A stretch of DNA of 64,000 nucleotides from Conexivisphaerales archaeon (GTDB taxonomy: Archaea; Thermoproteota; Nitrososphaeria; Conexivisphaerales; DTJL01): the NCBI GenBank assembly GCA_038728585.1, contig JAVYTR010000002.1, positions 1 through 64,000 of the forward strand. Reading direction: 5' to 3'. The notes under the pieces were generated by a model. It was not told the DNA's origin. It saw nothing but the letters and a program-made list of their open reading frames with translations, and did no database searches. This document shows positions 5,384 to 19,415 of the stretch, piece by piece (positions within the stretch are counted from its first letter, which is position 1; every line of letters starts with the position of its first letter). A program made the position numbers and the translations under genes.

Positions 5384-5718
5384 ACATATCGCCGCTAACT
5401 GGAAGAGCAAAAAGTGTGGTATTTAAGCATTGAAAATCGAAAACCTGCAATTAAGAGCAGAAGATGGTATGTTATATGGATTGGTCTGAAACGCTTTGAT
5501 TTGTTGCATGCTAGCCTTTCAGAAGAAATGCAGAAACTTGAGTGCCTTTTTCTCTTTGTTATTTACATTAACTGCTTGAAAGATAGGTTAGAAAAGACCA
5601 GTTGAGTTATGTAGATTTACAGTCTTGCTCAAAGAAAGAGAGAAAGAAAACAAAATCGCATGAACCTCATGTGATGAAGATTGGTATGGCTTATTTGCTT
5701 GTATTTGGATGGTTTATC
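5384..5718. promoter_or_regulatory. divergent intergenic region between importer and polyol genes
   Basis: This 335-bp stretch separates the leftward importer operon from the rightward catabolic operon. For the leftward genes a TATA-like element (TTAAATA on the minus strand, 5420-5426) lies about 40 bp before the binding-protein start. For the rightward gene a GGATGG at 5707-5712 is placed as a ribosome binding site. Short ORFs across the region have no convincing start signal or composition, so I see no gene here. Confidence 0.45.
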
Positions 5719-6819
5719 ATGATGAGTAACACTGCTGACTATGACGTCATAATCGTTGGTGCTGGCATAACGGGATTGATGATAGCTTATCATTTGCTTT
5801 CCAAAGGTTTGAGGATTGCTGTAGTGGAAAAGGAAGACTTTGCTGGAAGAGGTGTAACAAGCAGGCAGTCTGAAGTTATTCATGTTATTCAGCTTCCTTT
5901 CAGCTCCCTGAAGAGCAAGCTGGCAAGGAAAGGGAACAAGATGTATGACAACATCTGCAAGGAGCTTTCAGTAGAGCTGAGAAGAACAAAAGCAATACTT
6001 GTAGTAGAAAGCAACTTAAAACTGCTCTTGCTCTTTGTTGGCTATCTTTACCTGAGAGCTGAGCTGGGGAAAGACTTCAGGGTTGAAATCAGGCGAAGTA
6101 AGGGATTGAAGGAGGTAGAACCTCTCATCTCAGATAGAGTCAAAGCAGGGATAGTAGTTGATGGGTATGGAATTCTGGACTCAGCTTCTCTGGTAAGAAA
6201 TATGGTGGAGCATCTGAAAGAGAAGGGAGTGACTTTTTATTTCAATTGCCTAGCAACCGGTGGAGGACTGGATGCAGATCAAGAAAGAACGCTTCATGTT
6301 GATACCACTCTGGGCAGATTCAGAAGCAGAGCTGTTGTGATAGCTGCCGGGCTCTATTCTGATGAAGTTGCTGCCAGGTTTGGAATAGATGTGGAGAAAG
6401 TAACTCCTGGAAAGGGAGTCATTGCAGAATTTGCCGGGCTCGATGTAAGAAATATTATTGCTCCTTTCAGCCTTATTCAGAGAGGAAGGACAAAAGGAGG
6501 AGGTATAATCCCTACAGTAAGAGGTACATGCACTTTCGGCCCCACTCTGAGAATTGCAAAGAGTAAGGAAGACTATGAAGTTGATAGTGAAGACATAGAC
6601 CAGCTGATCAAGAAATTTTCCTGGCTTCTGAGCAGAGAGGGAAAGCTGATTAAAGCTTTTGCAGGGATAAGGCCTCTTTCTCCGTCTGAAGATTTCATCA
6701 TACATTTTCCAGCAAAGTATGAAGGAAGAGTTGCTGTGCAGAACGGTATAGAATCTCCAGGCCTTACAGCAGCTCCAGCTATTGCAGAGATGGTTTGCAG
6801 CAGGCTCAAACATGGGTAG
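5719..6819 (+). CDS. FAD-dependent oxidoreductase, glycerol-3-phosphate dehydrogenase/DAO family
   Basis: The protein is about 366 aa. The N terminus is a Rossmann FAD-binding motif, DYDVIIVGAGITGLMIAYHL, followed by VVEKE at the end of strand 2 and TSRQSEVIH, where FAD-contacting residues lie in the DAO fold. A second dinucleotide strand (AVVIAAGLYSDEV) and a C-terminal GIRPLSPSEDFIIH complete the family pattern of GlpA-, LhgO- and sarcosine-oxidase-like enzymes. Longer in-frame starts exist from 5602. The ATG pair at 5719/5722 is preferred because the motif then begins a few residues in and GGATGG lies just upstream. Its neighbour is an FGGY kinase, so the job is probably oxidation of a polyol phosphate or hydroxy acid. 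Confidence 0.8.
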   Translation: MMSNTADYDVIIVGAGITGLMIAYHLLSKGLRIAVVEKEDFAGRGVTSRQSEVIHVIQLPFSSLKSKLARKGNKMYDNICKELSVELRRTKAILVVESNLKLLLLFVGYLYLRAELGKDFRVEIRRSKGLKEVEPLISDRVKAGIVVDGYGILDSASLVRNMVEHLKEKGVTFYFNCLATGGGLDADQERTLHVDTTLGRFRSRAVVIAAGLYSDEVAARFGIDVEKVTPGKGVIAEFAGLDVRNIIAPFSLIQRGRTKGGGIIPTVRGTCTFGPTLRIAKSKEDYEVDSEDIDQLIKKFSWLLSREGKLIKAFAGIRPLSPSEDFIIHFPAKYEGRVAVQNGIESPGLTAAPAIAEMVCSRLKHG

Positions 6820-6875
6820 ATAGAATAAAAACACCCATGAGAATACTTCTGCAGGAGCAAAGAAGGTTGTTATGC

Positions 6876-8228
6876 ATGTATGCATGCATAGATGTTGGCA
6901 CAAGCAGCTGCAAGCTTGCGATTTATGACGAAAGCATGAAGAGGACATATGAGGAGAATGTGCAACTATCTCTGGCAGAGGATGGTATGCAAGATGCTTC
7001 TTCCATCCTTCAGTGCGTCAAAGGGTTTCTAGCTAGGGCCAGAGATAAAGGGGCGAAGAGCGCAGGGATAGCCTGTTACAGGTCTTCTCTTGTCTCTTGG
7101 GATAGAGATGGCAGGCCGCTTTCAAAAGTGATTACTTGGTTAAGTCATTCGACAGAAGATAGATACAAACAGCTTTCGCTACAGGCGAAGATGCTGAGCA
7201 GGTTCAGCCCTTTTAACCTCGTTATCTCTCCCAACTCTCCTGCACTGAGGTATCTGGTTGCTAGAGATTCTGCAAGATCCTCAGGCAAGGAATTTATGGT
7301 CTGGACTCTTGATTCATTTCTGGCCTACAATTTGGTAAGGAAATTTGTCAGCGACGCTACAAATGCAGCGCTGACAGGGTTGATAGACCCTGCAACGTTC
7401 AAACCGATTAAGCCTGTAATTTCGCTGTTGGGGATAGATGAAGATTTTCCTAGCATTATTGACAACACTGAACCACTTGGAAGCTATGAAGGGGTTGAGA
7501 TAAACTCCATCATCGCTGACCAGCAGGCAGCATGCATAGCTGAGGCGGCTACTGTGCCAGGAGTTTGCAAAGTAACAAACGGAACAGGCACCTTTGTTGA
7601 CATTCCTATTGAAAAGTACAGAAGGGTAGACGGACTGATACCTATAGTTATACTGAGACATAAGAATAAAGCAATATATGGCGCTGAAGGTTACCTTCCC
7701 ACATCTGGCTCTGCGATTCAGCTTCTCTTCAGACTCGGAATCTTGCACAACTGTTCTGAACTAGAGACAATCTCAAGCAGCAAATTATTCTTCATCCCAT
7801 CTCTAGCAGGTCTGCAGCTGCCAAGCATACCTAGGGCAAAGGGTCTTATTGCAGGTCTAGACCTTAACACAGAAAGGACTGCGATAGTTCAGGCGCTTCT
7901 GAAATCAATCGCCTTTCATGTCAGGATGGTGATAGAAGATTCAGGAGAAAGGGTAGGGGTGATAAGAGCTGACGGAAAGCTGTCTTTGAGCAACAGGCTG
8001 CTCAGCCTGATCTCTTCAGCGACTAACCTAGCTGTGGAGAGGCAGAGAGATGTTGAAGCGACTCAGAAAGGCTTGGCCCTGCTTCAGATGTTGTCAAACA
8101 ATAAGATAGGCATTGGTGATATAGAATCACAGAGGAAAGAAGTAGACGTAATTAAGGGCGAAGTGGAACCTGGTATTGAGGAAGAGTATCTGCAATGGAA
8201 GGAGAAGCTCAGATTGTTGAGGAGCTGA
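6876..8228 (+). CDS. FGGY-family carbohydrate kinase
   Basis: The protein is about 450 aa, shorter than the usual 490-510 aa of glycerol kinase or xylulokinase. The phosphate-1 motif CIDVGTSSCKLAIYD starts at residue 3. The middle has a SIIADQQAACIAEA segment with the conserved Asp-Gln, then GTGTFVDIP. The C-terminal RADGKLSLSNRL replaces the usual GGGAxSxxW adenosine motif, so it is a divergent member. The ATG at 6876 puts the phosphate motif at the very N terminus; AAGAAGG lies upstream. The gene overlaps the next one by 34 bp. The substrate is probably a small polyol or ketose. Confidence 0.82.
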   Translation: MYACIDVGTSSCKLAIYDESMKRTYEENVQLSLAEDGMQDASSILQCVKGFLARARDKGAKSAGIACYRSSLVSWDRDGRPLSKVITWLSHSTEDRYKQLSLQAKMLSRFSPFNLVISPNSPALRYLVARDSARSSGKEFMVWTLDSFLAYNLVRKFVSDATNAALTGLIDPATFKPIKPVISLLGIDEDFPSIIDNTEPLGSYEGVEINSIIADQQAACIAEAATVPGVCKVTNGTGTFVDIPIEKYRRVDGLIPIVILRHKNKAIYGAEGYLPTSGSAIQLLFRLGILHNCSELETISSSKLFFIPSLAGLQLPSIPRAKGLIAGLDLNTERTAIVQALLKSIAFHVRMVIEDSGERVGVIRADGKLSLSNRLLSLISSATNLAVERQRDVEATQKGLALLQMLSNNKIGIGDIESQRKEVDVIKGEVEPGIEEEYLQWKEKLRLLRS

Positions 8229-9547
8229 AGAAGATAGTCCAAGTTTTGGAGAATAAGCAGGAGTATGAAGAAGACTGGTGGGTCTACAGCAGGATAGCTG
8301 GCAAAACCGGCAGCTGCATAGCAGCTGTAAGGCCTTTGAACGAGCCTCAGGTTTTGAGTGTGTTAAGATTCTGTTATGACAAGGATATCCCTGTCACATG
8401 CAGAGGGGGAGGAAGCTCTGTTACAGGTGCTTCAGTACCAGAGAGAGGTATAGTGATTGATATGTCTGGAATGAGAAGGATAGTCAGGCTTGATACTGAG
8501 AACAGCTTTGTGGAGGTTGAAGCTGGTATCAGACTCAATGAATTGGAGAGCAGGTTGAATGAGATAGACTACACTCTGGGTCAGTTTCCTCAGTCCTTTG
8601 AGCTTGCGACCGTAGGGGGCTACATATCGACGATGGGAACAGGTGAATTCAGCAGCCTATATGGAGGTATTGAAAACAGCTGCCTTTCTCTCAGGATTGC
8701 TTTGCCAGATGGAGAAGTGATAGAAACAAGATATACTGATTCTCCTAGGTCTTCGGCAGGTCCTAATCTGACTCACCTTTTCATAGGTGCTGAAGGAATG
8801 CTTGGAGTAATATTGGCTGCGAAGTTGAAGATATACAGAAAAGAAAGATACAGCAGGAAACTTGCCTATACTCTTTCAAGGTTTGAGGATTCGGGAATAA
8901 TTGCAAGGGAGCTGTTAAATCTCGACATAAGGCCTGCGCTCTTCAGAGCGTACAACAGCGAAGAATCGATGTTTCTCTTTGGAATTGACAAACCGGTTCT
9001 GCTTTTGGTGTACAACTTCAAAAGCGAAGGAGTGATGAATGAGATAATGAATGAAGTCAAGTCAGCTGTTTCCAAGCATGGAGGAAGAGAAGAGAGCGAA
9101 ACTCTAGTTGATAGGTACCTTTATGCCAGGTACAGATTCAGAGAGCAGCTCGAATTCTTTTCAAAGGCGAATATTGTTGTAGAAACGGCCGAAGTTGCAG
9201 CTGTCTGGAGCAGGCTCTTCAGGCTGTATCAGGATGTTGCTAGCCAGGTGAAGAAGGTGAAGGGAGTAAGCGCTGTAGGCGCTCACATATCACACATTTA
9301 CGAGCAAGGTGCATGTATCTATTTTACTGTACTGTTTGAGCCGAGCAGAGAAACGTATGGCTTGATATGGGAAGCGGTTGACAAAGCATGCAGCAATTAC
9401 TCAGCTACGGTTTCACACCACCACGGGGTAGGAATACTGAAGAAGGATATGGTGAAAAGGGAAATGCCTCTTTCATTACTGCTTAAGATAAAAGATGCAA
9501 TCGATGTAAAAGGAATGATGAACCCAGGTAAGTATCTGCAGCATTAA
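8195..9547 (+). CDS. FAD-binding oxidase, alkyl-DHAP-synthase (AGPS)-like
   Basis: The protein is 450 aa in the VAO/PCMH flavoprotein fold. The FAD-binding half has VTCRGGGSSVTGASVPERG and FELATVGGYISTMGTGEFSS, then LYGGIEN, matching the pattern of alkyldihydroxyacetonephosphate synthase more than glycolate oxidase GlcD. Near residue 407 it has SHHHGVGILKKDM. The His-His-His motif is the AGPS signature, where GlcD-type enzymes carry a different motif. It overlaps the FGGY kinase gene, so the two are coupled. The family's known reaction exchanges acyl for alkyl on DHAP, but archaea build ether lipids by another route. The role here is open: oxidation of a glycerol-like hydroxy acid is as likely. 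Confidence 0.78.
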   Translation: MEGEAQIVEELKKIVQVLENKQEYEEDWWVYSRIAGKTGSCIAAVRPLNEPQVLSVLRFCYDKDIPVTCRGGGSSVTGASVPERGIVIDMSGMRRIVRLDTENSFVEVEAGIRLNELESRLNEIDYTLGQFPQSFELATVGGYISTMGTGEFSSLYGGIENSCLSLRIALPDGEVIETRYTDSPRSSAGPNLTHLFIGAEGMLGVILAAKLKIYRKERYSRKLAYTLSRFEDSGIIARELLNLDIRPALFRAYNSEESMFLFGIDKPVLLLVYNFKSEGVMNEIMNEVKSAVSKHGGREESETLVDRYLYARYRFREQLEFFSKANIVVETAEVAAVWSRLFRLYQDVASQVKKVKGVSAVGAHISHIYEQGACIYFTVLFEPSRETYGLIWEAVDKACSNYSATVSHHHGVGILKKDMVKREMPLSLLLKIKDAIDVKGMMNPGKYLQH

Positions 9548-9558
9548 CATCAGCAACG

Positions 9559-9566
9559 CTTATATC
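9559..9566 (+). promoter_or_regulatory. TATA-like element upstream of the SCP2 gene
   Basis: CTTATATC lies about 23-30 bp before the ATG at 9589, the spacing expected for an archaeal promoter giving a nearly leaderless transcript. It suggests that the SCP2-ADH-ALDH group has its own promoter. Confidence 0.5.
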
Positions 9567-9588
9567 AAATCTCAGGATTTATTGACCC

Positions 9589-9993
9589 ATGGTAAAGTTT
9601 CCCAGTCCAGAATGGGTGGAAGAATACGCAAGGAAATTGAACGAGAACAAGTCATACAAGGATGCAGCTCAGACTTGGGAAGGCGACATAGTGTTCGTTG
9701 TAGAGAAGGACGAAGCTTTTCCCCAGAACAGCTACATATACCTTGACCTTTACCATGGTGAATGCAGAAAAGCAGTTTACGCTGATTCACCAGACAAGAT
9801 ACCGAAGGCTGCATTCACATATCGAGGACCTTATTCAAACTGGAGAAAGCTGATAGACAAGCAGATAGACCCGATACAGGGCATACTGACAGGAAAGTTC
9901 AAGCTGGAAGGTTCGATGATGAAGATAATGAGGTACACAAAGGCTGCAAAAGAGATGGTTAACACTGCAACGCTGGTTCAGACAGAATTCTGA
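9589..9993 (+). CDS. SCP2 sterol-carrier-like protein
   Basis: The protein is 134 aa. The pattern WEGDIVFVVEKDEAFP, AVYADSPDKIPKAAFTYRG and ILTGKFKLEGSMMKIMRY is that of stand-alone SCP2-fold lipid or acyl-carrier proteins; LTGKFKLEGSMMKIM is the conserved helix region. It is soluble, with no signal peptide. It follows the AGPS-like gene and precedes the alcohol and aldehyde dehydrogenase genes. An SCP2 domain is fused or linked to fatty-acyl and ether-lipid enzymes in other organisms, so a lipid-like ligand is plausible but unproven here. Confidence 0.78.
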   Translation: MVKFPSPEWVEEYARKLNENKSYKDAAQTWEGDIVFVVEKDEAFPQNSYIYLDLYHGECRKAVYADSPDKIPKAAFTYRGPYSNWRKLIDKQIDPIQGILTGKFKLEGSMMKIMRYTKAAKEMVNTATLVQTEF

Positions 9994-10013
9994 ATCAGGC
10001 TAGATGAAAGCAG

Positions 10014-11159
10014 ATGTGGTTCTTCAGGTCACCTGAGATAGTGTATGGTGAAGATTCCCTATCCTATCTGGCTTCACTCGACATGAAGAGAGTTGCGATA
10101 GTGACAGACAGATTTCTAAAGAGCAGCAGAGTAATAGATAGAGTGCTGGCTGCCATTCCAAAGGAAGTAAGCAGTATTGTTGTTGCGGATATCAACCCTG
10201 AGCCGACCTTCGAAGAGATGACCTTATCACTTCCTCAGGTAAGGGATTTCTCTCCAGACTGGTTCCTGGCTGTAGGAGGAGGTTCATCGATAGATACCGC
10301 AAAGCTGCTCTTTGCCCTTTATGAGAGGCCAGACATATCCTTCTACGATATAACACCTCTGGTAAAGCTAAACCTGAGACGCAAGAGCAGGCTTGCCGCT
10401 CTGCCCACAACAAGCGGTACAGGCTCAGAATGCAGCTGGGCAGCTGTTGTCACAGAGGAGGCTGATGAAACGGGGAGCAGAAAGGCAAGAAAGGTGGAGC
10501 TTGCATCAAAGGAGATAATGCCAGATATAGCTATACTCGACCCTATTCTGGTTTCAGAGCTGCCGGCTGAGCAGACTAGAAATACCGCGACAGATGCGAT
10601 AGTCCACGCTGTAGAAGCATATGTGAGCAGCTGGAGAAATCCCTACTCTGATGCACTTGCAGAAAAGGCTCTGGAGCTGATAACACCTAATCTGCCTAAG
10701 GTTCTTGCAGAACCTGATGATATAGCAGCTAGGAACGATATTCATATCGGAGCCTCAATGGCTGGACTCTCCTTCTCCAATTCCCAGATAGGTCTGGCGC
10801 ATGCGATGGGCCATGCGCTCGGCTCTCTGTTCAGGATTCCCCATGGACTATGCGTTGGGCTCTTCCTGCCATATGTGGTTGAGTTTAACCAGAGTGAAGT
10901 CGGCGAAAGGTATAGCCTTCTCAACCGGAAGTTCCCTGAAAAGTACAGAAAGAGCGAGCTTTCTCTGACTCTGAAGAGTTATCTTGCAGAGGTAGGAATG
11001 CCATTGACTGCTAGAGAAGCAGGGATCAGTAGAGAAAGATACAAGGAGATGCTGGAAGAGCTTGTCGACCTGGCAAGCGAGTCAACAGGAGTTACAACAA
11101 ATGCTAGAGATGCAAGCAGAGATGACATCAGAAGGATATTTATCCTAGCAGGTGGATAA
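10014..11159 (+). CDS. iron-containing alcohol dehydrogenase
   Basis: The protein is 381 aa, the family's usual size. It has the NAD(P)-binding AVGGGSSIDTAK (residues 86-97) and LPTTSGTGSE (130-139). The metal ligands are Asp194 and His198 in TDAIVHAVEAY, His263 in AHAMGHALG and His277 in RIPHGLC. The pattern fits class III Fe-ADHs acting on short alcohols, polyols or lactaldehyde. It starts 20 bp after the SCP2 gene and stops 5 bp before the aldehyde dehydrogenase, so an alcohol-to-aldehyde-to-acid relay is likely. Confidence 0.88.
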   Translation: MWFFRSPEIVYGEDSLSYLASLDMKRVAIVTDRFLKSSRVIDRVLAAIPKEVSSIVVADINPEPTFEEMTLSLPQVRDFSPDWFLAVGGGSSIDTAKLLFALYERPDISFYDITPLVKLNLRRKSRLAALPTTSGTGSECSWAAVVTEEADETGSRKARKVELASKEIMPDIAILDPILVSELPAEQTRNTATDAIVHAVEAYVSSWRNPYSDALAEKALELITPNLPKVLAEPDDIAARNDIHIGASMAGLSFSNSQIGLAHAMGHALGSLFRIPHGLCVGLFLPYVVEFNQSEVGERYSLLNRKFPEKYRKSELSLTLKSYLAEVGMPLTAREAGISRERYKEMLEELVDLASESTGVTTNARDASRDDIRRIFILAGG

Positions 11160-11164
11160 GTCTC

Positions 11165-12670
11165 TTGGAACCAAAGTTGAAGAAGTATGGCAACCTCATA
11201 GATGGTAGGTATGATTATGAAGGAGAAGAGGAGAAGCTCTTCAGTCCTGCAGATGGGTCAGAGGTAGCTATCATAACCAAGGCAAGCTACGAAAAGGCAA
11301 AAGAAGCTATCGACTCTGCCGAAGATGCCTTCAGAAATGTATGGTCCAAGACCACTGTTGAGCAGAGGCAGAAGATACTACTCAAGCTTGCTGAAATAGT
11401 GCAGGAGAGGGCCGAAGAATATGCAAGGCTCGAATCTCTGAACACTGGCAAAACCCTCAGGCAGAGTACATTCATGGATATACCACTTGGCATAGAGCAC
11501 ATCTCATATTTTGCCAAGATGAAGGAGTTCAGGCCTGAAAGAGAGATAGAGCATCCGGAGTACCCTGGGACAAGAGGTATAGTTCAGTACTTGCCTCTGG
11601 GGGTTGTTGCAGCAATAGCTCCATGGAATGTACCTTTTCTTATGGCTGTCTGGAAGATAGCCCCAGCATTGCTAGCAGGAAACTGTGTTGTTCTGAAGCC
11701 CTCACACTACACCCCTCTGACTGCTCTAGAACTTGCAGAAGACGCGATAAGGGCAGGTCTGCCTGCAGGGGTTCTGAATGTTGTAGTCGGAGAAGCTGAC
11801 AAGGTTGGCAATGCATTGCTGGAGAGCCAGAAGGTCAACCACGTGAGCTTCACTGGATCGACAAAGACAGGGTTAGATGTGATGAGAAAGGCATCGAACA
11901 GCCTAAAGAGAATAACCCTGGAGCTTGGAGGCAAGTCGCCTAACATAGTGTTTGAGGATGCAGATATTGACAGAGCAGCAAAAGGTGTTCTCTTCGGAAT
12001 ATACCTCAACTCAGGTCAGCTGTGTGAATCTGGGAGCAGACTTCTGGTTCATTCGAGCATCAAGGAGAAGCTGCTGAAGAGAATGGTAACGTACCTGGAC
12101 AGGATGAAGGCTGGTAATCCCCTCGATATGGAGACTGACCTGAGCGCAATAACCACAAGGGAGCAGAAGAAGAAGATAGAAGTTATGGTGGAATCAAGTC
12201 TGAGCAGCGGTGCCAAGGTTGTTTACACAAGGGATATAGATGGATTTGTTCCGAGCAAGGGATTGTATTATCCACCAAGCATAATAGGCGATGTAAGCAA
12301 GGATATGCTGGCTGCGAGAGAAGAGATCTTCGGTCCCGTGCTCGCAGTTATGGAATTCCACACAGAAGATGAGGCAATACAGCTTGCGAACGAAACAGAA
12401 TATGGTCTGGCAGCCGGAGTCTGGTCGTCCGACATAAGCAGGGCAAAAAGGGTAGCCCAGAACATTCTTGCGGGGACTGTCTGGATAAATGAGTATCACC
12501 TGTTGAGTGCTGCTGCACCCAGAGGAGGGTTCAAGAAGAGTGGGTTAGGAAGAGAGCTGGGCCTTGAGGGAGTTATGGAACTGACACAGACCAGGCACCT
12601 CTTCATAAACGAAGGGGGAAGTGACCTTAGTGAGGTTGCCTATAACCTGGTTGTTAGAGAAGAAGGATGA
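11165..12670 (+). CDS. NAD(P)-dependent aldehyde dehydrogenase
   Basis: The protein is 501 aa. The catalytic residues are in place: Asn155 in IAPWNVPF, Glu253 in LELGGKSPN and Cys287 in NSGQLCESGSR. FTGSTKTG is the coenzyme loop. The start is a TTG at 11165 with AGGTGG about ten bases upstream; no ATG is available nearby. It resembles the betaine- or hydroxy-aldehyde branch of the ALDH superfamily. It probably oxidises the aldehyde produced by the adjacent Fe-ADH. Confidence 0.9.
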   Translation: MEPKLKKYGNLIDGRYDYEGEEEKLFSPADGSEVAIITKASYEKAKEAIDSAEDAFRNVWSKTTVEQRQKILLKLAEIVQERAEEYARLESLNTGKTLRQSTFMDIPLGIEHISYFAKMKEFRPEREIEHPEYPGTRGIVQYLPLGVVAAIAPWNVPFLMAVWKIAPALLAGNCVVLKPSHYTPLTALELAEDAIRAGLPAGVLNVVVGEADKVGNALLESQKVNHVSFTGSTKTGLDVMRKASNSLKRITLELGGKSPNIVFEDADIDRAAKGVLFGIYLNSGQLCESGSRLLVHSSIKEKLLKRMVTYLDRMKAGNPLDMETDLSAITTREQKKKIEVMVESSLSSGAKVVYTRDIDGFVPSKGLYYPPSIIGDVSKDMLAAREEIFGPVLAVMEFHTEDEAIQLANETEYGLAAGVWSSDISRAKRVAQNILAGTVWINEYHLLSAAAPRGGFKKSGLGRELGLEGVMELTQTRHLFINEGGSDLSEVAYNLVVREEG

Positions 12671-12687
12671 GCAAGCATAAAGATTAT

Positions 12688-12697
12688 GTTTATTTAA
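12688..12697 (+). promoter_or_regulatory. TATA-like element before a methyltransferase gene
   Basis: GTTTATTTAA lies about 22-31 bp upstream of the ATG at 12719, consistent with a leaderless or near-leaderless archaeal transcript. Confidence 0.45.
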
Positions 12698-12718
12698 TCT
12701 GATTCAACCAAGTTTGCT

Positions 12719-13300
12719 ATGCACAGAGACCATTTCGATTCTGAATTTGCACGTATACTTCTTTCAGATGAAAGAAGAAGATGGCAAGACCCTGACAGAA
12801 TCATCTCCCAGCTCAGAATAGAAAAGGATTTCCAGATATGCGATTTAGGCTGCGGACCAGGCTTTTTCACCTTAGCCTTTGCAAGAAAGGTAGGCAGCAA
12901 GGGGAAGGTATTTGCAGTAGATTCCAGCCCAAAGATGCTTGAGGTTCTCAGGGCTGAGCTGATTAAGAATAGGATAAGGAATGTTGAACTTATCTGCTCA
13001 GATGTGACCTCTACAGGCCTTCCTGGCAACTCGATGGATATAGCGTTCTTTGCCAACGTGCTGCATGACATAGATGATAAACCTGCATTTCTGGCAGAGG
13101 TCAGGAGAATATGCAAGAAGGAAGCTCAGGTGGTGAACATAGACTGGAAGAAGGACCAGCAGAGTAATCACGGTCCGCCTGACCATATGAGGCTGGACGA
13201 AGAAGAAGCCTTGAAGATATTCGAGAAAGAGGGTTTCAGGCTGGAAAGAACGATAGATGGAGGATCATATCACTACGGCCTACTGTTCAGGGTTGAATAA
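12719..13300 (+). CDS. class I SAM-dependent methyltransferase
   Basis: The protein is 193 aa. Motif I is ICDLGCGPGFFTLAFA (about residues 40-55), followed by VFAVDSSPKMLEVL and MDIAFFANVLHDIDD, the UbiE/arsenite-methyltransferase-like Rossmann pattern. A C-terminal YHYGLLFRV is typical of small archaeal family members. No substrate-specific motif is recognised. It has its own TATA-like promoter and is convergent with the following LLM gene, from which it is separated by 2 bp. Confidence 0.8.
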   Translation: MHRDHFDSEFARILLSDERRRWQDPDRIISQLRIEKDFQICDLGCGPGFFTLAFARKVGSKGKVFAVDSSPKMLEVLRAELIKNRIRNVELICSDVTSTGLPGNSMDIAFFANVLHDIDDKPAFLAEVRRICKKEAQVVNIDWKKDQQSNHGPPDHMRLDEEEALKIFEKEGFRLERTIDGGSYHYGLLFRVE

Positions 13301-14272: not shown

Positions 14273-15967
14273 TCAGCTTGTCTTTAACTGAGTTTCTGAA
14301 GCGTTTAGAACCTCAAGTTCAATCACTTTTTCCACCTGGTTTCCGAAGAAGTCCTTGAAGTTTCTATGGCTATATTTATCCTTAAAGAGTTTTTTGACAA
14401 GCTTTTTCTTCTTTTCATCAGCTAAGATTTGAAAGCTGCATTTAAGCCTCCTTCCCTCTAATTCAACTATAACCTCATTTGAAGCGTTGATGCTTTTTGC
14501 CAGGTCAAAGTTCTTATGCTGCGATGGGATGACGTAAAATTTGCCTTTTTTGAAGGCAAACCAGTATGAAGGAGAGGTTGATGATTGCTGCCCTTCGGAA
14601 GAGTAAATCTTGATCTCTGCAACTCCTTTGAGTCTTCTCTCTCCCAGGAACTCCTGTTCCTGCTTGGCAATCGGCTTTCCCTTTCCTATGTTGTGTATCA
14701 TGTACAGGAACCAGACCATAGACACGAGAATGAGTGGGCCAGATAGCGCCTCCCAGTAGGGAAGATAGCCAGACCTCAGGGAGTAAAAATCTCCTGCTGC
14801 TCTGACGAGCATGCCCAAGTTGAGAAAGATTAGAGGGTAGTAGGAGAGGCCTGTCGTAGGGCCCCTTCTACCGAGAAGGCCTGGCAATAGCATGGGGGCA
14901 TAGCAGAGTATAGTCGAACCGATGAAGCCTATAGCAATCGCATGAATGAAGAGGTCTCTCATGTAGAAGGAATCCGCGATTGCCACGACTGCCGGTGGCA
15001 GTAAGTGAGCAGACATAAAATTGGGTAAGGTAATGATCAATCCTATCGCAGATGCCATGAAAAGCCATATGAACGCTGGAAGCATCGCTGCGTCATTGTA
15101 ATACATAATCCTGTAGTGAACCTGGGTCATAGATGGCCTGTACATCAGAGGGTGATTCATTTCAAACAGTTTCATCGATATACTTGCCGCTACAGCTGCA
15201 AGCAGGAAGAAGAACTCTGCAGAAAAGAGCATCAACGTTGAAGATGTCAATAAAGAAGTAAAGTCGAAGATTATGGCGATTCCTTGGAACAGCCAGGTTA
15301 GGTTTGCCCATCCAGGCCTGTAATCGCTTTGCCTGAAACTCACAGACCTGATTTCTACAGCATAGACCATTGATATGGCGAATCCAAGGAGGGAAAGATA
15401 GATCGATGAATCGGAAAAGATATCAATAGATATGCCTAGGAATCTGTTGTAAGCAAGTAACAGAGCAATTGAAGAGAGTAATGCTGCTAGAGCTGATTCT
15501 GCTATCAATGGATTCGTTTCAGGGAAGCCTCCCTTCTCCTCGAAAGCCAGAGATATAGTCTGCAGTGCAAAGACGAGTGTGCCAAAAAGAAAGAGTGTAG
15601 ATGCTAGTGAACCAATTAGAGAAGAAGCTAAGCTGTCTGATGCTATGAAGAAAATGTCTGATGCAGTTATTGCTGCGTAGCTGAGATATGCTAGGCTGAT
15701 CGACCTTATCCTCTCTGCCTTGAACCTTGGTACCAGAATGTAAGCGACGCCGATGACAAATTCGAATATGAACCCGTATGTCTGAGCGTAGGGATGAGGA
15801 GAGAAAAGAGAGGAAGAAAAAGAGAGTCTGAAACCAGAAAGAACTGCCAGCATGATAGAGCCAATACCTGTACCGTAGAGGCCAAAGAGTGCTCCTGTGG
15901 CTATGAAGAGAAGGGCAAGAGTCCTCTGATGGTTTCTCTGTCTAGTCAATGGCTCCAATCCATTCAC
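14273..15967 (-). CDS. NnrS-like membrane protein fused to a C-terminal split-barrel-like domain
   Basis: The protein is 564 aa. Residues 1-440 hold about twelve hydrophobic helices. Near residues 350-400 they carry the NnrS-like pattern HAIAIGFIGSTILCYAPMLL followed by LGRRGPTTG. NnrS proteins are haem- and copper-containing membrane proteins linked to NO metabolism in denitrifiers. The last 110 residues are soluble (KKGKFYVIPSQHKNFDLAKS, then EVIVELEGRRL) and recall the FMN/F420-binding split barrel of deazaflavin-dependent nitroreductases. I do not know this fusion. The start is a GTG at 15967; a plausible TATA (GAAATATAATTCC on the minus strand) lies 26-37 bp upstream. Confidence 0.65.
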   Translation of the reverse strand: MNGLEPLTRQRNHQRTLALLFIATGALFGLYGTGIGSIMLAVLSGFRLSFSSSLFSPHPYAQTYGFIFEFVIGVAYILVPRFKAERIRSISLAYLSYAAITASDIFFIASDSLASSLIGSLASTLFLFGTLVFALQTISLAFEEKGGFPETNPLIAESALAALLSSIALLLAYNRFLGISIDIFSDSSIYLSLLGFAISMVYAVEIRSVSFRQSDYRPGWANLTWLFQGIAIIFDFTSLLTSSTLMLFSAEFFFLLAAVAASISMKLFEMNHPLMYRPSMTQVHYRIMYYNDAAMLPAFIWLFMASAIGLIITLPNFMSAHLLPPAVVAIADSFYMRDLFIHAIAIGFIGSTILCYAPMLLPGLLGRRGPTTGLSYYPLIFLNLGMLVRAAGDFYSLRSGYLPYWEALSGPLILVSMVWFLYMIHNIGKGKPIAKQEQEFLGERRLKGVAEIKIYSSEGQQSSTSPSYWFAFKKGKFYVIPSQHKNFDLAKSINASNEVIVELEGRRLKCSFQILADEKKKKLVKKLFKDKYSHRNFKDFFGNQVEKVIELEVLNASETQLKTS

Positions 15968-16027: not shown

Positions 16028-16465
16028 TCAGACCTTCTGGCTGCTCTCGAGGTGCCTGGGATTGACAGGACGGTATGCTATCGCAAGTGCAGCACCGATT
16101 ATCCCCAGAATCGCCCCTATGAAGAAGCCTCCCATTGCTAGTAGACTAAGGGCTGATGCCACAAGTGCTATTATTCCCCACTGCGTTGACCGGGATGGGT
16201 TGGCATTGACCATAAGAGCAGCTACTAACACTATCAGCCCAAGCACCAATCCTGATATGCTGACCCAGTAGAAGACAGCAGGTACTACGTTCGGATAGCC
16301 ATACCAGCGCCCCATCATTCCACCCATCCAGCCGTAATAGTAGTAGTTACCCATCATGAATGGATACATGAAGAAAGCAAGGATTGCAGAACCGAGCATT
16401 ATGAATACTCCAGAGAGCAGAAGGAGTATGAAGGCTGCTGTAGGTTTCTCTTCGCTAGCTGTCAT
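16028..16465 (-). CDS. small four-helix membrane protein
   Basis: The protein is 145 aa. It has a short cytoplasmic N terminus, a helix at about 10-35, a Tyr/Gly/Met-rich loop (YYYYGWMGGMMGRWYGY) and three further helices. The general pattern resembles small DUF4064-like membrane proteins, but I do not assign a family. A TATA-like GGATATAAATACC lies about 20-30 bp upstream. It lies between the NnrS-fusion and the hemerythrin gene in the same direction, so a role in the same stress response is possible. Confidence 0.7.
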   Translation of the reverse strand: MTASEEKPTAAFILLLLSGVFIMLGSAILAFFMYPFMMGNYYYYGWMGGMMGRWYGYPNVVPAVFYWVSISGLVLGLIVLVAALMVNANPSRSTQWGIIALVASALSLLAMGGFFIGAILGIIGAALAIAYRPVNPRHLESSQKV

Positions 16466-16592: not shown

Positions 16593-17045
16593 TTAACCTA
16601 ACTTACTTAACTTTGCTTCATCTCTGTGAAGCTGTGTTATGTACATGCCAAGCACAAAAGCAGCTGGGTAGAGCACCTCTTCTTCAAGAGTGGCGTGGTG
16701 CAGGAGCATGTTCAGCGACTCAGTCACATCTTTGCTCTTCTTTTCTTCGTTCTTGATATTACTTGCTATCTCCGCTATCATCTTGTGCTCCTTCTTCATA
16801 TTTGCATAATCCCTTTTGAACATATCAAAGCATCTGGCAAGCCTTTGCAGCTTCTCTTGAGATGGAAGATGAGCTTTTGTCTTGACAAATTCAGGCAGTG
16901 AATTGAGCAGTGGCATGACGAAGTCTTCTTCCTTGGCAAAGTGTGGTTCGAGTATGGCCAGCAGTCTCTCCTTGGATTCTTCCTTCATAATGAGATTCCT
17001 GATGTTCTGCATCAGTTCTTCATGCTCTTCATCCAAAACTGTCAT
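16593..17045 (-). CDS. hemerythrin-like HHE-domain protein
   Basis: The protein is 150 aa and all helical. It has the HHE cation-binding spacing: an early EEHEELMQN, ILEPHFAKEEDFVMP, KKEHKMIAEI, and LLHHATLEEEVLYP near the C terminus. The His/Glu set could bind a di-iron centre. HHE proteins store or sense O2 and NO, or help repair Fe-S or di-iron sites damaged by NO (ScdA/YtfE). The promoter contains an inverted repeat, CCCTAACATTTATAGGGG, 37 bp before the start; a near-copy sits at the same distance before the DUF2249-cupin gene. It belongs to the NO island. Confidence 0.85.
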   Translation of the reverse strand: MTVLDEEHEELMQNIRNLIMKEESKERLLAILEPHFAKEEDFVMPLLNSLPEFVKTKAHLPSQEKLQRLARCFDMFKRDYANMKKEHKMIAEIASNIKNEEKKSKDVTESLNMLLHHATLEEEVLYPAAFVLGMYITQLHRDEAKLSKLG

Positions 17046-17216: not shown

Positions 17217-18389
17217 TCAAGAGAAGAATATTGTCCTTACAAACAGAAGGACAGCTATAAGTATCAGCCAGCCAGAGATACCTGATACTATTGCAAAGTA
17301 CCCGTTGTAAAAGAAGTCGCCAGAAATTCTAAGAGAATTCGATAATGTCAGTATGACAAGAGGCATAGTAGATGGATTAAGGGGGCTTCTTCTCTTCAGC
17401 AGGGAGGGGAGTATGACAGGCCCATGAGCCAGCAGCATCGTGCCTATGAATCCTACAGCCATCGCATGAATCATGGCATCATAGGCATTGCCTGCAGAGA
17501 AAGCAAAAAAATAGATACCAAAGACTGAAGCTGCAATCAGCCAGAAGTAAGCTACCGCTACATTGGCCATGACATATCTCTGAAGAGGAAATTTTGACTT
17601 GATGATTCTTTTGAAGTTTGAAGACTCATCAGTCAGAATCAGAGCTGCAACAATTATCATGATTGTAAAGGCGGAAGCCATAAGCCAACTCGAATCGGAG
17701 GAAGAGACTGTTGCTGCCAGCGTCAGGATAAAAAGTAGAATACAACCATAGAAGCCTAACCTGAATTTCGATTCAGAATAGCTGGTGGTTGAATACCTTG
17801 TCAACTCTATCCTTTCGCCAAAGATGAATATTGCTGGGAAGAGAAGAAGCATCACAGCCTCAGGAGCGTTTGAAATAAATCCTGAACGATATGTCAGAAT
17901 CGCATAGGCTTCAAGCGGGAAGATAGATAGAATCATGAAGTAGAAAGGGAGCCTGATGCCTGTCTTTTTTGAAAGACTGAACATCAGAAATATGAAGCAA
18001 AGAAGCCCAGCAAATATAAGGAAGGAACCTATCAGAGCAAAGTAGAATATTCCTGCAAAGTCTCCTGCAATCTGCAAAAGCAGGCCAGCCTGAGTTAGCG
18101 GAACCATAAGTCTGCTAGCAAGTATGCTTGACTTCTGAAGGTTCAGTATCGATATCCCAGCATACCTTTCGCTCATGATAATCGGAGCAAGAAAACCAAA
18201 GACCATGATGTTTGGGTGAGCCTCGTACAGAGGGATAAGAAATGACGGATAGACCTGTATCCCGTGCAGGTTCATCAACCTGAAGATGCCTACAAGCAGA
18301 CCAAGAAGCATGAAACCAAGTGATGATACAAGCCTCAGCCTAGAGGAGCGCAGGTAGCTGTTTGTGATGTCTGCACTCCTTTCGGCCAA
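17217..18389 (-). CDS. NnrS-like membrane protein
   Basis: The protein is 390 aa with about twelve hydrophobic segments. The N terminus has LYEAHPNIMVFGFLAPIIM, and a later HAMAVGFIGTMLLAHGPVIL is followed by LKRRSP and LSNSLRISGDFFY. Histidine-bearing helices of this kind are the hallmark of NnrS. It parallels the membrane part of the 564-aa fusion, so the island has two paralogues. The start is a TTG at 18389. It is the third gene of an operon with the DUF2249-cupin and MIP18 genes, 26 bp after the latter. Confidence 0.75.
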   Translation of the reverse strand: MAERSADITNSYLRSSRLRLVSSLGFMLLGLLVGIFRLMNLHGIQVYPSFLIPLYEAHPNIMVFGFLAPIIMSERYAGISILNLQKSSILASRLMVPLTQAGLLLQIAGDFAGIFYFALIGSFLIFAGLLCFIFLMFSLSKKTGIRLPFYFMILSIFPLEAYAILTYRSGFISNAPEAVMLLLFPAIFIFGERIELTRYSTTSYSESKFRLGFYGCILLFILTLAATVSSSDSSWLMASAFTIMIIVAALILTDESSNFKRIIKSKFPLQRYVMANVAVAYFWLIAASVFGIYFFAFSAGNAYDAMIHAMAVGFIGTMLLAHGPVILPSLLKRRSPLNPSTMPLVILTLSNSLRISGDFFYNGYFAIVSGISGWLILIAVLLFVRTIFFS

Positions 18390-18415: not shown

Positions 18416-18736
18416 CTATATCCCAAGAGCTCTATGCGCTTCCTCGCTCATCATCGACGGATTCCATGGTGGGTCGAAGACTATCTGAACGTCAACATCT
18501 CTTACCCCTTTTACTGACATGCAGGCCCTTGTTACTTCATCCATCAACCACGGCCCAACAGGGCAACCTGGAGAAGTAACTGTCATCTTTATGCTCACAT
18601 GGCCAGAATCGTCCACGTTCAGCTCATAAATTAGCCCAAGGTCCACTATGTTGAACGGTATTTCAGGGTCATAGCACGTTTTCAAAGCCTCAAGAAGCTG
18701 GTTTGTTATCTTCTCGTTCGGAGCCGTTGCGATCAA
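18416..18736 (-). CDS. MIP18/DUF59-family Fe-S assembly protein (SufT/PaaD-like)
   Basis: The protein is 106 aa. It matches the DUF59 pattern: CYDPEIPFNIVDLGLIYEL, then MTVTSPGCPVGPWLMDEV with the conserved Cys, and FDPPWNPSMMSEEAHRALG at the C terminus. SufT/PaaD-type members help insert or mature Fe-S clusters. In the NO island, between DUF2249-cupin and NnrS genes, a role in repairing NO-damaged clusters is a reasonable inference. Confidence 0.88.
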   Translation of the reverse strand: MIATAPNEKITNQLLEALKTCYDPEIPFNIVDLGLIYELNVDDSGHVSIKMTVTSPGCPVGPWLMDEVTRACMSVKGVRDVDVQIVFDPPWNPSMMSEEAHRALGI

Positions 18737-18788: not shown

Positions 18789-19415
18789 TCATTCGAATTT
18801 TCCCTCTGCAAGCTTCTTTGTAACCTCTTCGTGGTCCCTGTCTGATGGAGGTGGAGAAACAAGGTGAAGTGCTTCAACCTCTGTCTCAGCAATCAGTCCT
18901 CTCCTCACGCCTCCAGGAACCACTATAATGCTTCCTGGGAAGACCTTTGCCCTTTCCTTTCCTGCAATGACTTCACCTCTCCCCTTGACAATCAGCAGCA
19001 CAACGTCGTTCGCTGGCGTGTGGACAGGAATGAACTGACCAGACTTTAGGTAGACCAGAAGCACCCTGTAATCATCCCTGCTGAAGACAGGAACAGGCCT
19101 GAAGTACTTCTCGTCATACTGTCTCAGCTTTTCGAATGAAGTTATTATCACCTCATCCTTTCTGGGAAGTTCTTCGCTGACTTCTCTCTTTCTGAACCTA
19201 GCTATCCACTTGCCAGGCTCCACCATCTCTGCAGAATAGGATGAAGGGTCGAAGTCATCCCTTTCGTGCTGCATGAAGTAGAGAAGGTGAAGCGGCTCGT
19301 GGTCGTTTATTATAATGAGTTCCTCTCCAGGTTTCAGACTCTCGAACCTCTCAAGTATCAGCTGATGCCTTTGAAAAGGAGGGATAGCTCTGACATCGAA
19401 TTCTATCACTGGCAT
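18789..19415 (-). CDS. DUF2249 plus cupin fusion protein
   Basis: The protein is 208 aa. The first 75 residues follow DUF2249 (DVRAIPPFQRHQLILERF, then IIINDHEPLHLLYFMQ). DUF2249 is often found with hemerythrin and denitrification genes. The second half is a small cupin: VLLVYLKSGQFIPVHTPAND, VLLIVKGRGEVIAG and FPGSIIVVPGGVRRG. A metal site in the cupin is likely but degenerate, with one clear His. It heads the operon with the MIP18 and NnrS genes and has the shared inverted repeat 37 bp upstream. Confidence 0.82.
   Translation of the reverse strand: MPVIEFDVRAIPPFQRHQLILERFESLKPGEELIIINDHEPLHLLYFMQHERDDFDPSSYSAEMVEPGKWIARFRKREVSEELPRKDEVIITSFEKLRQYDEKYFRPVPVFSRDDYRVLLVYLKSGQFIPVHTPANDVVLLIVKGRGEVIAGKERAKVFPGSIIVVPGGVRRGLIAETEVEALHLVSPPPSDRDHEEVTKKLAEGKFE

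Follow-up and report, generated by a model that had tools for sequence, protein, structure and literature searches.

The use of coenzyme F420 outside the Euryarchaeota and Actinobacteria is poorly known, and to our knowledge there is no settled mechanism for the NnrS proteins. NnrS (PF05940) is a membrane protein containing haem and copper, and its gene is a member of bacterial nitric oxide (NO) regulons (PMC1274295). Haem-copper oxidase subunit I, as in the cbb3 oxidase and the NO reductase NorB, carries a low-spin-haem histidine in its second transmembrane helix (TM2) together with ligands for CuB/FeB and a high-spin haem. Ddn is a deazaflavin-dependent nitroreductase and F420H2-dependent menaquinone reductase of the FDOR-A kind (PF04075), enzymes which reduce menaquinone (PMC8498797). 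Its F420 contacts comprise R54, K55, T56 and R60 at the glutamate tail, N91, K79 and M87/W88 at the phosphate and ribityl groups, and A76 and Y133 at the ring (PMC3267046).

The window analysed here, a stretch of 64,000 nucleotides from a Conexivisphaerales archaeon, encodes a protein in which an NnrS-like membrane domain is followed by a split-barrel tail of the Ddn kind (Table 1). With NnrS it shares 12 helices, an NO/nitrate context and homology through a paralogue just under the family cut-off, but it differs in lacking a PF05940 match, in carrying the tail and in showing no CuB-type ligands. With haem-copper oxidase subunit I it has in common the predicted fold and the TM2 haem histidine, but not the ligands of CuB/FeB and the high-spin haem. 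The tail has the fold of Ddn, and sister tails belong to the Ddn sequence family, whereas the window tail is fused to a membrane haem-type protein and is devoid of the F420-contact residues. Its closest relatives are stand-alone thaumarchaeal split barrels of ~120-150 aa (G306, G383, G370 and others); unlike the window tail these are not fused, and G306 retains R54, K55, W88 and N91 at the F420 site. The combination of an NnrS-like protein with an F420-reductase-like tail seems not to have been described before, both parts being of known kinds; a search covering part of the literature for NnrS together with F420 returned no paper.

Table 1. Positions in the window of the fusion gene, its parts and its neighbours
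Feature	Position	Strand	Basis or remark
Fusion gene, 564 aa, GTG start	14273..15967	minus	ORF reading; six homologues of the same architecture
NnrS-like membrane domain, residues 13-430, 12 predicted transmembrane helices	14678..15931	minus	AlphaFold2 model, Foldseek, VIA, hhalign to COX1
H58, TM2, low-spin-haem histidine position	15794..15796	minus	hhalign; invariant H in COX1 alignment; nearly invariant among NnrS-like proteins
H342, TM10, putative second low-spin-haem ligand	14942..14944	minus	Invariant in 20 NnrS-like proteins
Linker, residues 431-447	14627..14677	minus	Low pLDDT, weakly conserved
Split-barrel domain, Ddn/PF04075 kind, residues 448-554	14306..14626	minus	Models, fold searches, PF04075/TIGR00026 matches of homologous tails, hhalign
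VIPSQHKNFDLAKSI, residues 479-493, former F420 phosphate loop and helix B; Ddn K79, W88, N91 lost	14489..14533	minus	Alignment, PMC3267046
LFKDKYSHRNFKDFFG, residues 527-542, most conserved segment of the tail	14342..14389	minus	Seven-fusion alignment
Hemerythrin-domain protein	16593..17045	minus	PF01814 8e-7
Second NnrS-like protein, tail-less	17217..18389	minus	PF05940 24.2 bits vs cut-off 28
Iron-sulfur cluster assembly protein	18416..18736	minus	PF01883 1.8e-17
DUF2249 plus cupin protein	18789..19415	minus	PF10006 1.2e-20; cupin match weak
HTH_10 (Bat-type) regulator with CPLCxxxxGLNC segment	19558..20205	plus	PF04967 4e-18

The fused gene and its distribution

The 564 codons of the fusion gene are uninterrupted, with no internal stop, and the membrane part and tail occur in one frame and in the same N-to-C order in six other independently assembled genomes. 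Three of these belong to the same family and encode proteins with 56% (G001), 51% (G002) and 42% (G003) identity to the window protein, while G308, G398 and G200 represent two other families of the same thaumarchaeal class. The architecture is thus found in seven genomes of three families and one class, at loci with a GC content of 41 to 64%. The earlier note had considered that two ORFs might have been joined by an error and had proposed a search for the same fusion in other archaea; the six homologues answer both points, since both halves share one frame in independent genomes and the gene can therefore not be a joining error. The names of several of the genomes mark them as metagenome assemblies, which is nothing specific to this locus, and an assembly or reading-frame artefact repeated at the same join in seven genomes of such different base composition is hardly credible. 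The joined architecture is real in a few thaumarchaeal lineages. A putative mis-binning of the G003 contig was also rejected, its GC content of 0.64 lying within the 0.61-0.67 of the other contigs of that genome.

A pattern scan of GTDB contigs recovered four such loci, all four fused, in the records Thaumarchaeota archaeon Centralia_MAG_53, Nitrososphaeria archaeon DRTY1_bin.15, archaeon Maxine3 and archaeon YF1.bin89. Among the strong matches in a sample of the phylum (398 genomes) the only fusion is that of the window itself and the others stop before the tail, and further fusions may exist elsewhere. A first scan of the genome collection with the single window protein as query gave nothing useful. 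In the phylogenetic tree the seven fused proteins and one unfused homologue (G162) form a clade (support 99/99). One gain of the tail and one loss, in G162, would be the simplest history, while the tree does not establish the fused proteins as a monophyletic group; no remnant of a tail is seen just downstream of the G162 gene.

The membrane domain and its putative haem site

Residues 1-430 of the fusion protein match no Pfam or NCBIfam family, and PF05940 gives nothing at E<=1. The protein does, however, match the tail-less paralogue encoded nearby at 17217-18389 (E 4e-8, 28% identical) and NnrS-like proteins from across the class (to E 1e-19), and NnrS-like relatives occur throughout class and phylum. 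By these sequence matches, residues 13-430 are homologous to the thaumarchaeal NnrS-like proteins. A search of plasmids for bona fide NnrS led nowhere. The full-length AlphaFold2 model, built on eight sequences (pLDDT 80, pTM 0.75), contains 12 long helices, taken as transmembrane. Among the first Foldseek matches to the model are haem-copper oxidase subunit I proteins, including those of cbb3 oxidase and NO reductase (E 1.4e-7), and VIA-align superposes it on them with Z 30-32.5 over 385-398 residues (cbb3: Z 32.5, rmsd 3.3, 394 residues). The membrane domain is accordingly predicted to have the haem-copper oxidase subunit I fold. No claim of newness is made for this fold in NnrS, our search having covered only part of the literature.

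In a profile-profile alignment with ten archaeal COX1-family proteins, H58 falls at the position of their invariant low-spin-haem histidine in TM2, and a conserved proline lies 22 residues away in both. Of the two histidines in the TM10 HxH motif, H342 would be the counterpart of the second, as judged from the order of the helices and from a proline that lies 20 residues away in both; hhalign did not align it. Histidines that could serve as CuB/FeB ligands are absent from TM6 (186-211) and TM7 (218-241) of the fusion protein, as is the first histidine of the HxH motif, and a CuB/high-spin-haem centre is therefore absent, which leaves the protein without an active site of this oxidase or NO-reductase type. 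The protein had been described in the earlier note as a haem/copper protein; one low-spin-haem site, resting on the two histidines, is plausible, but there are no CuB ligands to support the copper half of the description. A haem-copper oxidase fold that has a single haem site but lacks CuB would provide concrete residues to mutate in the NnrS-like domain. The loops on the N-terminal side carry 11 K+R against three on the opposite side, suggesting that the N and C termini lie together on the cytoplasmic side. The TM2 segment of two haem-copper oxidases from G035 and G033 (L093, L094), TVHPFVGIYG, resembles the HPYAQTYG of NnrS-like proteins, a possible family link.

The split-barrel tail and the residues of the F420 site

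In the full-length model the tail (residues 451-553) folds as beta-beta-beta-alpha-beta-beta-alpha-beta, and when modelled separately from five sequences it again forms a split barrel (pLDDT 79, pTM 0.76). In the Foldseek search the best match is Ddn (3r5r, E 1.6e-4), followed closely by F420-binding relatives, and the top matches are split barrels throughout, so that the fold check proposed in the earlier note came out in favour of its reading of the C-terminal region. Superposition by VIA gives Z 9.8 over 101 residues for Ddn and Z 8 to 10.6 for F420-, flavin- and haem-binding split barrels alike, and the fold therefore does not tell the cofactor of the tail. One could suppose that flavin or haem has become the cofactor of the tail, which might for example carry electrons or haem to the membrane part, in keeping with the scores of Z 8.9-10.6 for the flavin/haem split barrels 2hti, HutZ (3tgv) and HugZ (3gas). 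These differences from Ddn are, however, within noise, Ddn-type proteins head the Foldseek ranking and no recognised motif for binding flavin or haem turned up in the tail, which makes such a switch quite unlikely.

The window tail itself has no match to PF04075, and sequence searches of the PDB with the tail or the full alignment as query yielded nothing useful. The G003 tail, by contrast with the window tail, matches PF04075 (2e-15) and TIGR00026 over the curated cut-offs, and Ddn at 2e-7; of the 20 proteins in the alignment, 4 match PF04075. When a profile was built from the three diverged tails alone (window, G001 and G002), profile-profile comparison with the stand-alone archaeal members gave a match at E 2e-7. 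The models, the Foldseek ranking, the G003 matches and this profile together uphold the earlier description of an NnrS-like membrane protein joined to a split barrel like those of deazaflavin-dependent nitroreductases. A candidate identity of the window tail with TraJ (TIGR02525, E 0.005) was rejected as far below the family cut-off. Since single-domain split-barrel relatives are common in the class, the tail would most simply have been recruited from a stand-alone Ddn-type (FDOR-A-like, PF04075) protein.

The residues at the F420 site differ among the fusions. When aligned to Ddn, the tails of the window, G001 and G002 are seen to have lost all six of the residues R54, K55, T56, K79, W88 and N91, and both contact segments are deleted in G002. 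The G003 tail retains R54, K55, T56, P63, W88 and N91, with R at position 79, those of G308 and G200 retain R54, T56, W88 and N91, and retention is weaker in G398 (K55, T56, W88). The four fusions which keep the F420 site and the three without it constitute a natural test of the role of the tail. The two motifs cited in the earlier note do fall within the correct elements of the fold, but VIPSQHKNFD occupies the former place of the F420-phosphate loop, and the suggestion of a reductase linked to F420 or flavin finds no support for the window copy. It might still be argued that the window protein is an active F420H2-dependent membrane reductase which binds F420 by altered contacts and passes electrons to haem b or quinone. 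The fold and ancestry of the tail, the partial retention of aromatic residues in its last helix and the F420 pathway of the cell speak for this (cofD, a gene of F420 synthesis, has a match in 8/8 genomes searched, and the cell likely makes F420), but the loss of all six contact side chains in the window and the deletions in its relative G002 render it quite improbable.

The most conserved segment of the tail, LFKDKYSHRNFKDFFG, includes the LFxDKYxxR residues L527, F528, D530, K531, Y532 and R535, which are invariant in 7/7 fusions. Values of pN/pS are 0.47-0.55 for the tail and 0.36-0.40 for the core, with pS near saturation, and the tail evolves under constraint. It is consequently very unlikely that the tail is a functionless passenger, retained merely as the downstream end of a needed membrane domain: its faster evolution relative to the core, the G002 deletions and the presence of unfused G162 in the same clade are compatible with this, but pN/pS stays well below 1 over a deep divergence and the LFxDKYxxR segment is invariant. 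The window protein (G000), G001 and G002 form a clade (support 93/95), and a NarH homologue is found in 3 of 8 genomes, namely those of these three proteins alone; as this concerns one clade and incomplete genomes, the coincidence of NarH with loss of the F420 site is only a lead.

A second split barrel of the PF04075 type is encoded in the genome of the window (L071:1-1138, minus strand; contig C2, ~234000-235140), where it is N-terminal on a methyltransferase-like protein and keeps R54, K55, W88 and N91 of the F420 site. A similar gene may be present in G003 (L072).

Gene neighbourhood and proposed role

Genes for hemerythrin-domain proteins adjoin the fusion in G002, G308, G200 and G398. 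The fusion in G398 is surrounded by hemerythrin, HTH_10, DUF2249-cupin, Fe-S assembly and second NnrS-like genes, as in the window, while hemerythrin and regulator genes flank it in G308 and G200. In G002 the neighbour set of the window adjoins narH-narJ-narI, together with a gene for a TehA-like transporter and genes for the molybdenum cofactor; in G001 the fusion is on a different contig from the accessory cluster, which has nar genes next to it. The genome of the window encodes a complete narGHJI (4/4 over curated cut-offs) on another contig than the fusion, and no canonical copper nitrite reductase over the cut-off was found in it. In haloarchaea, denitrification is accompanied by induction of DUF2249 and Bat-type genes (PMC11218638). 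The neighbours and narGHJI point to nitrate respiration and NO stress, and the NO association suggested in the earlier note fits this context.

The best overall explanation, which we hold tentatively, is that this membrane protein contains haem b, is linked to NO and has its tail in the cytoplasm, and that F420 use was lost in the clade of the window. The ancestral tail, facing the cytoplasm, probably acted like Ddn as a reductase dependent on F420H2; it would have passed reducing equivalents from tail-bound F420H2 to the quinone pool or the membrane haem b, as Ddn does to menaquinone, and this electron transfer may have served against NO or nitrosative stress. In the clade of the window, G001 and G002 the F420 contacts would then have disappeared, while selection continued to act on the fold and the LFxDKYxxR helix, leaving a tail that is most likely F420-independent and might act as a cytoplasmic docking or signal-output domain. 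According to a citation in PMC5710167, NnrS has been proposed as an NO sensor signalling to cytoplasmic partners; the NO binding and signalling we infer here would be of this sort, with an NO-binding haem protein acting through its tail on its neighbours (hemerythrin, Fe-S assembly protein and HTH_10 regulator) during nitrate respiration. This role of the tail is argued from absent residues, and a different mode of binding F420, flavin or haem is possible. A bolder and rather unlikely proposal is that these proteins constitute a new membrane redox family, in which an oxidase scaffold without its catalytic centre bears an F420H2-oxidising tail that reduces haem b or quinone upon NO, and that in the clade of the window they have become NO sensors which work without F420 and are coupled to nitrate respiration. 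Either reading, if true, would tie coenzyme F420 to NO handling in thaumarchaea.

Several further features of these loci may be recorded. The narGHJI operon of the window's genome (contig C3, L097:4211-11763) also comprises a TehA-like transporter, moeA and mobB, and the unfused G162 homologue (L069:3409-6466) directly follows the gene of a multicopper protein that is NirK-like and has a cupredoxin domain. A small membrane protein with a DUF6114 match is encoded between the fusion and hemerythrin genes of the window (16028-16465, minus strand), while no such gene is seen at this place in G002. The gene run at 5602-13300 is syntenic with that beside the fusion in G002 and codes for an FAD oxidoreductase, a carbohydrate-kinase-like protein, an FAD-linked oxidase, an SCP2-like protein, an iron alcohol dehydrogenase, an aldehyde dehydrogenase and a methyltransferase, names which, except for the methyltransferase, were assigned by reading the sequences only.
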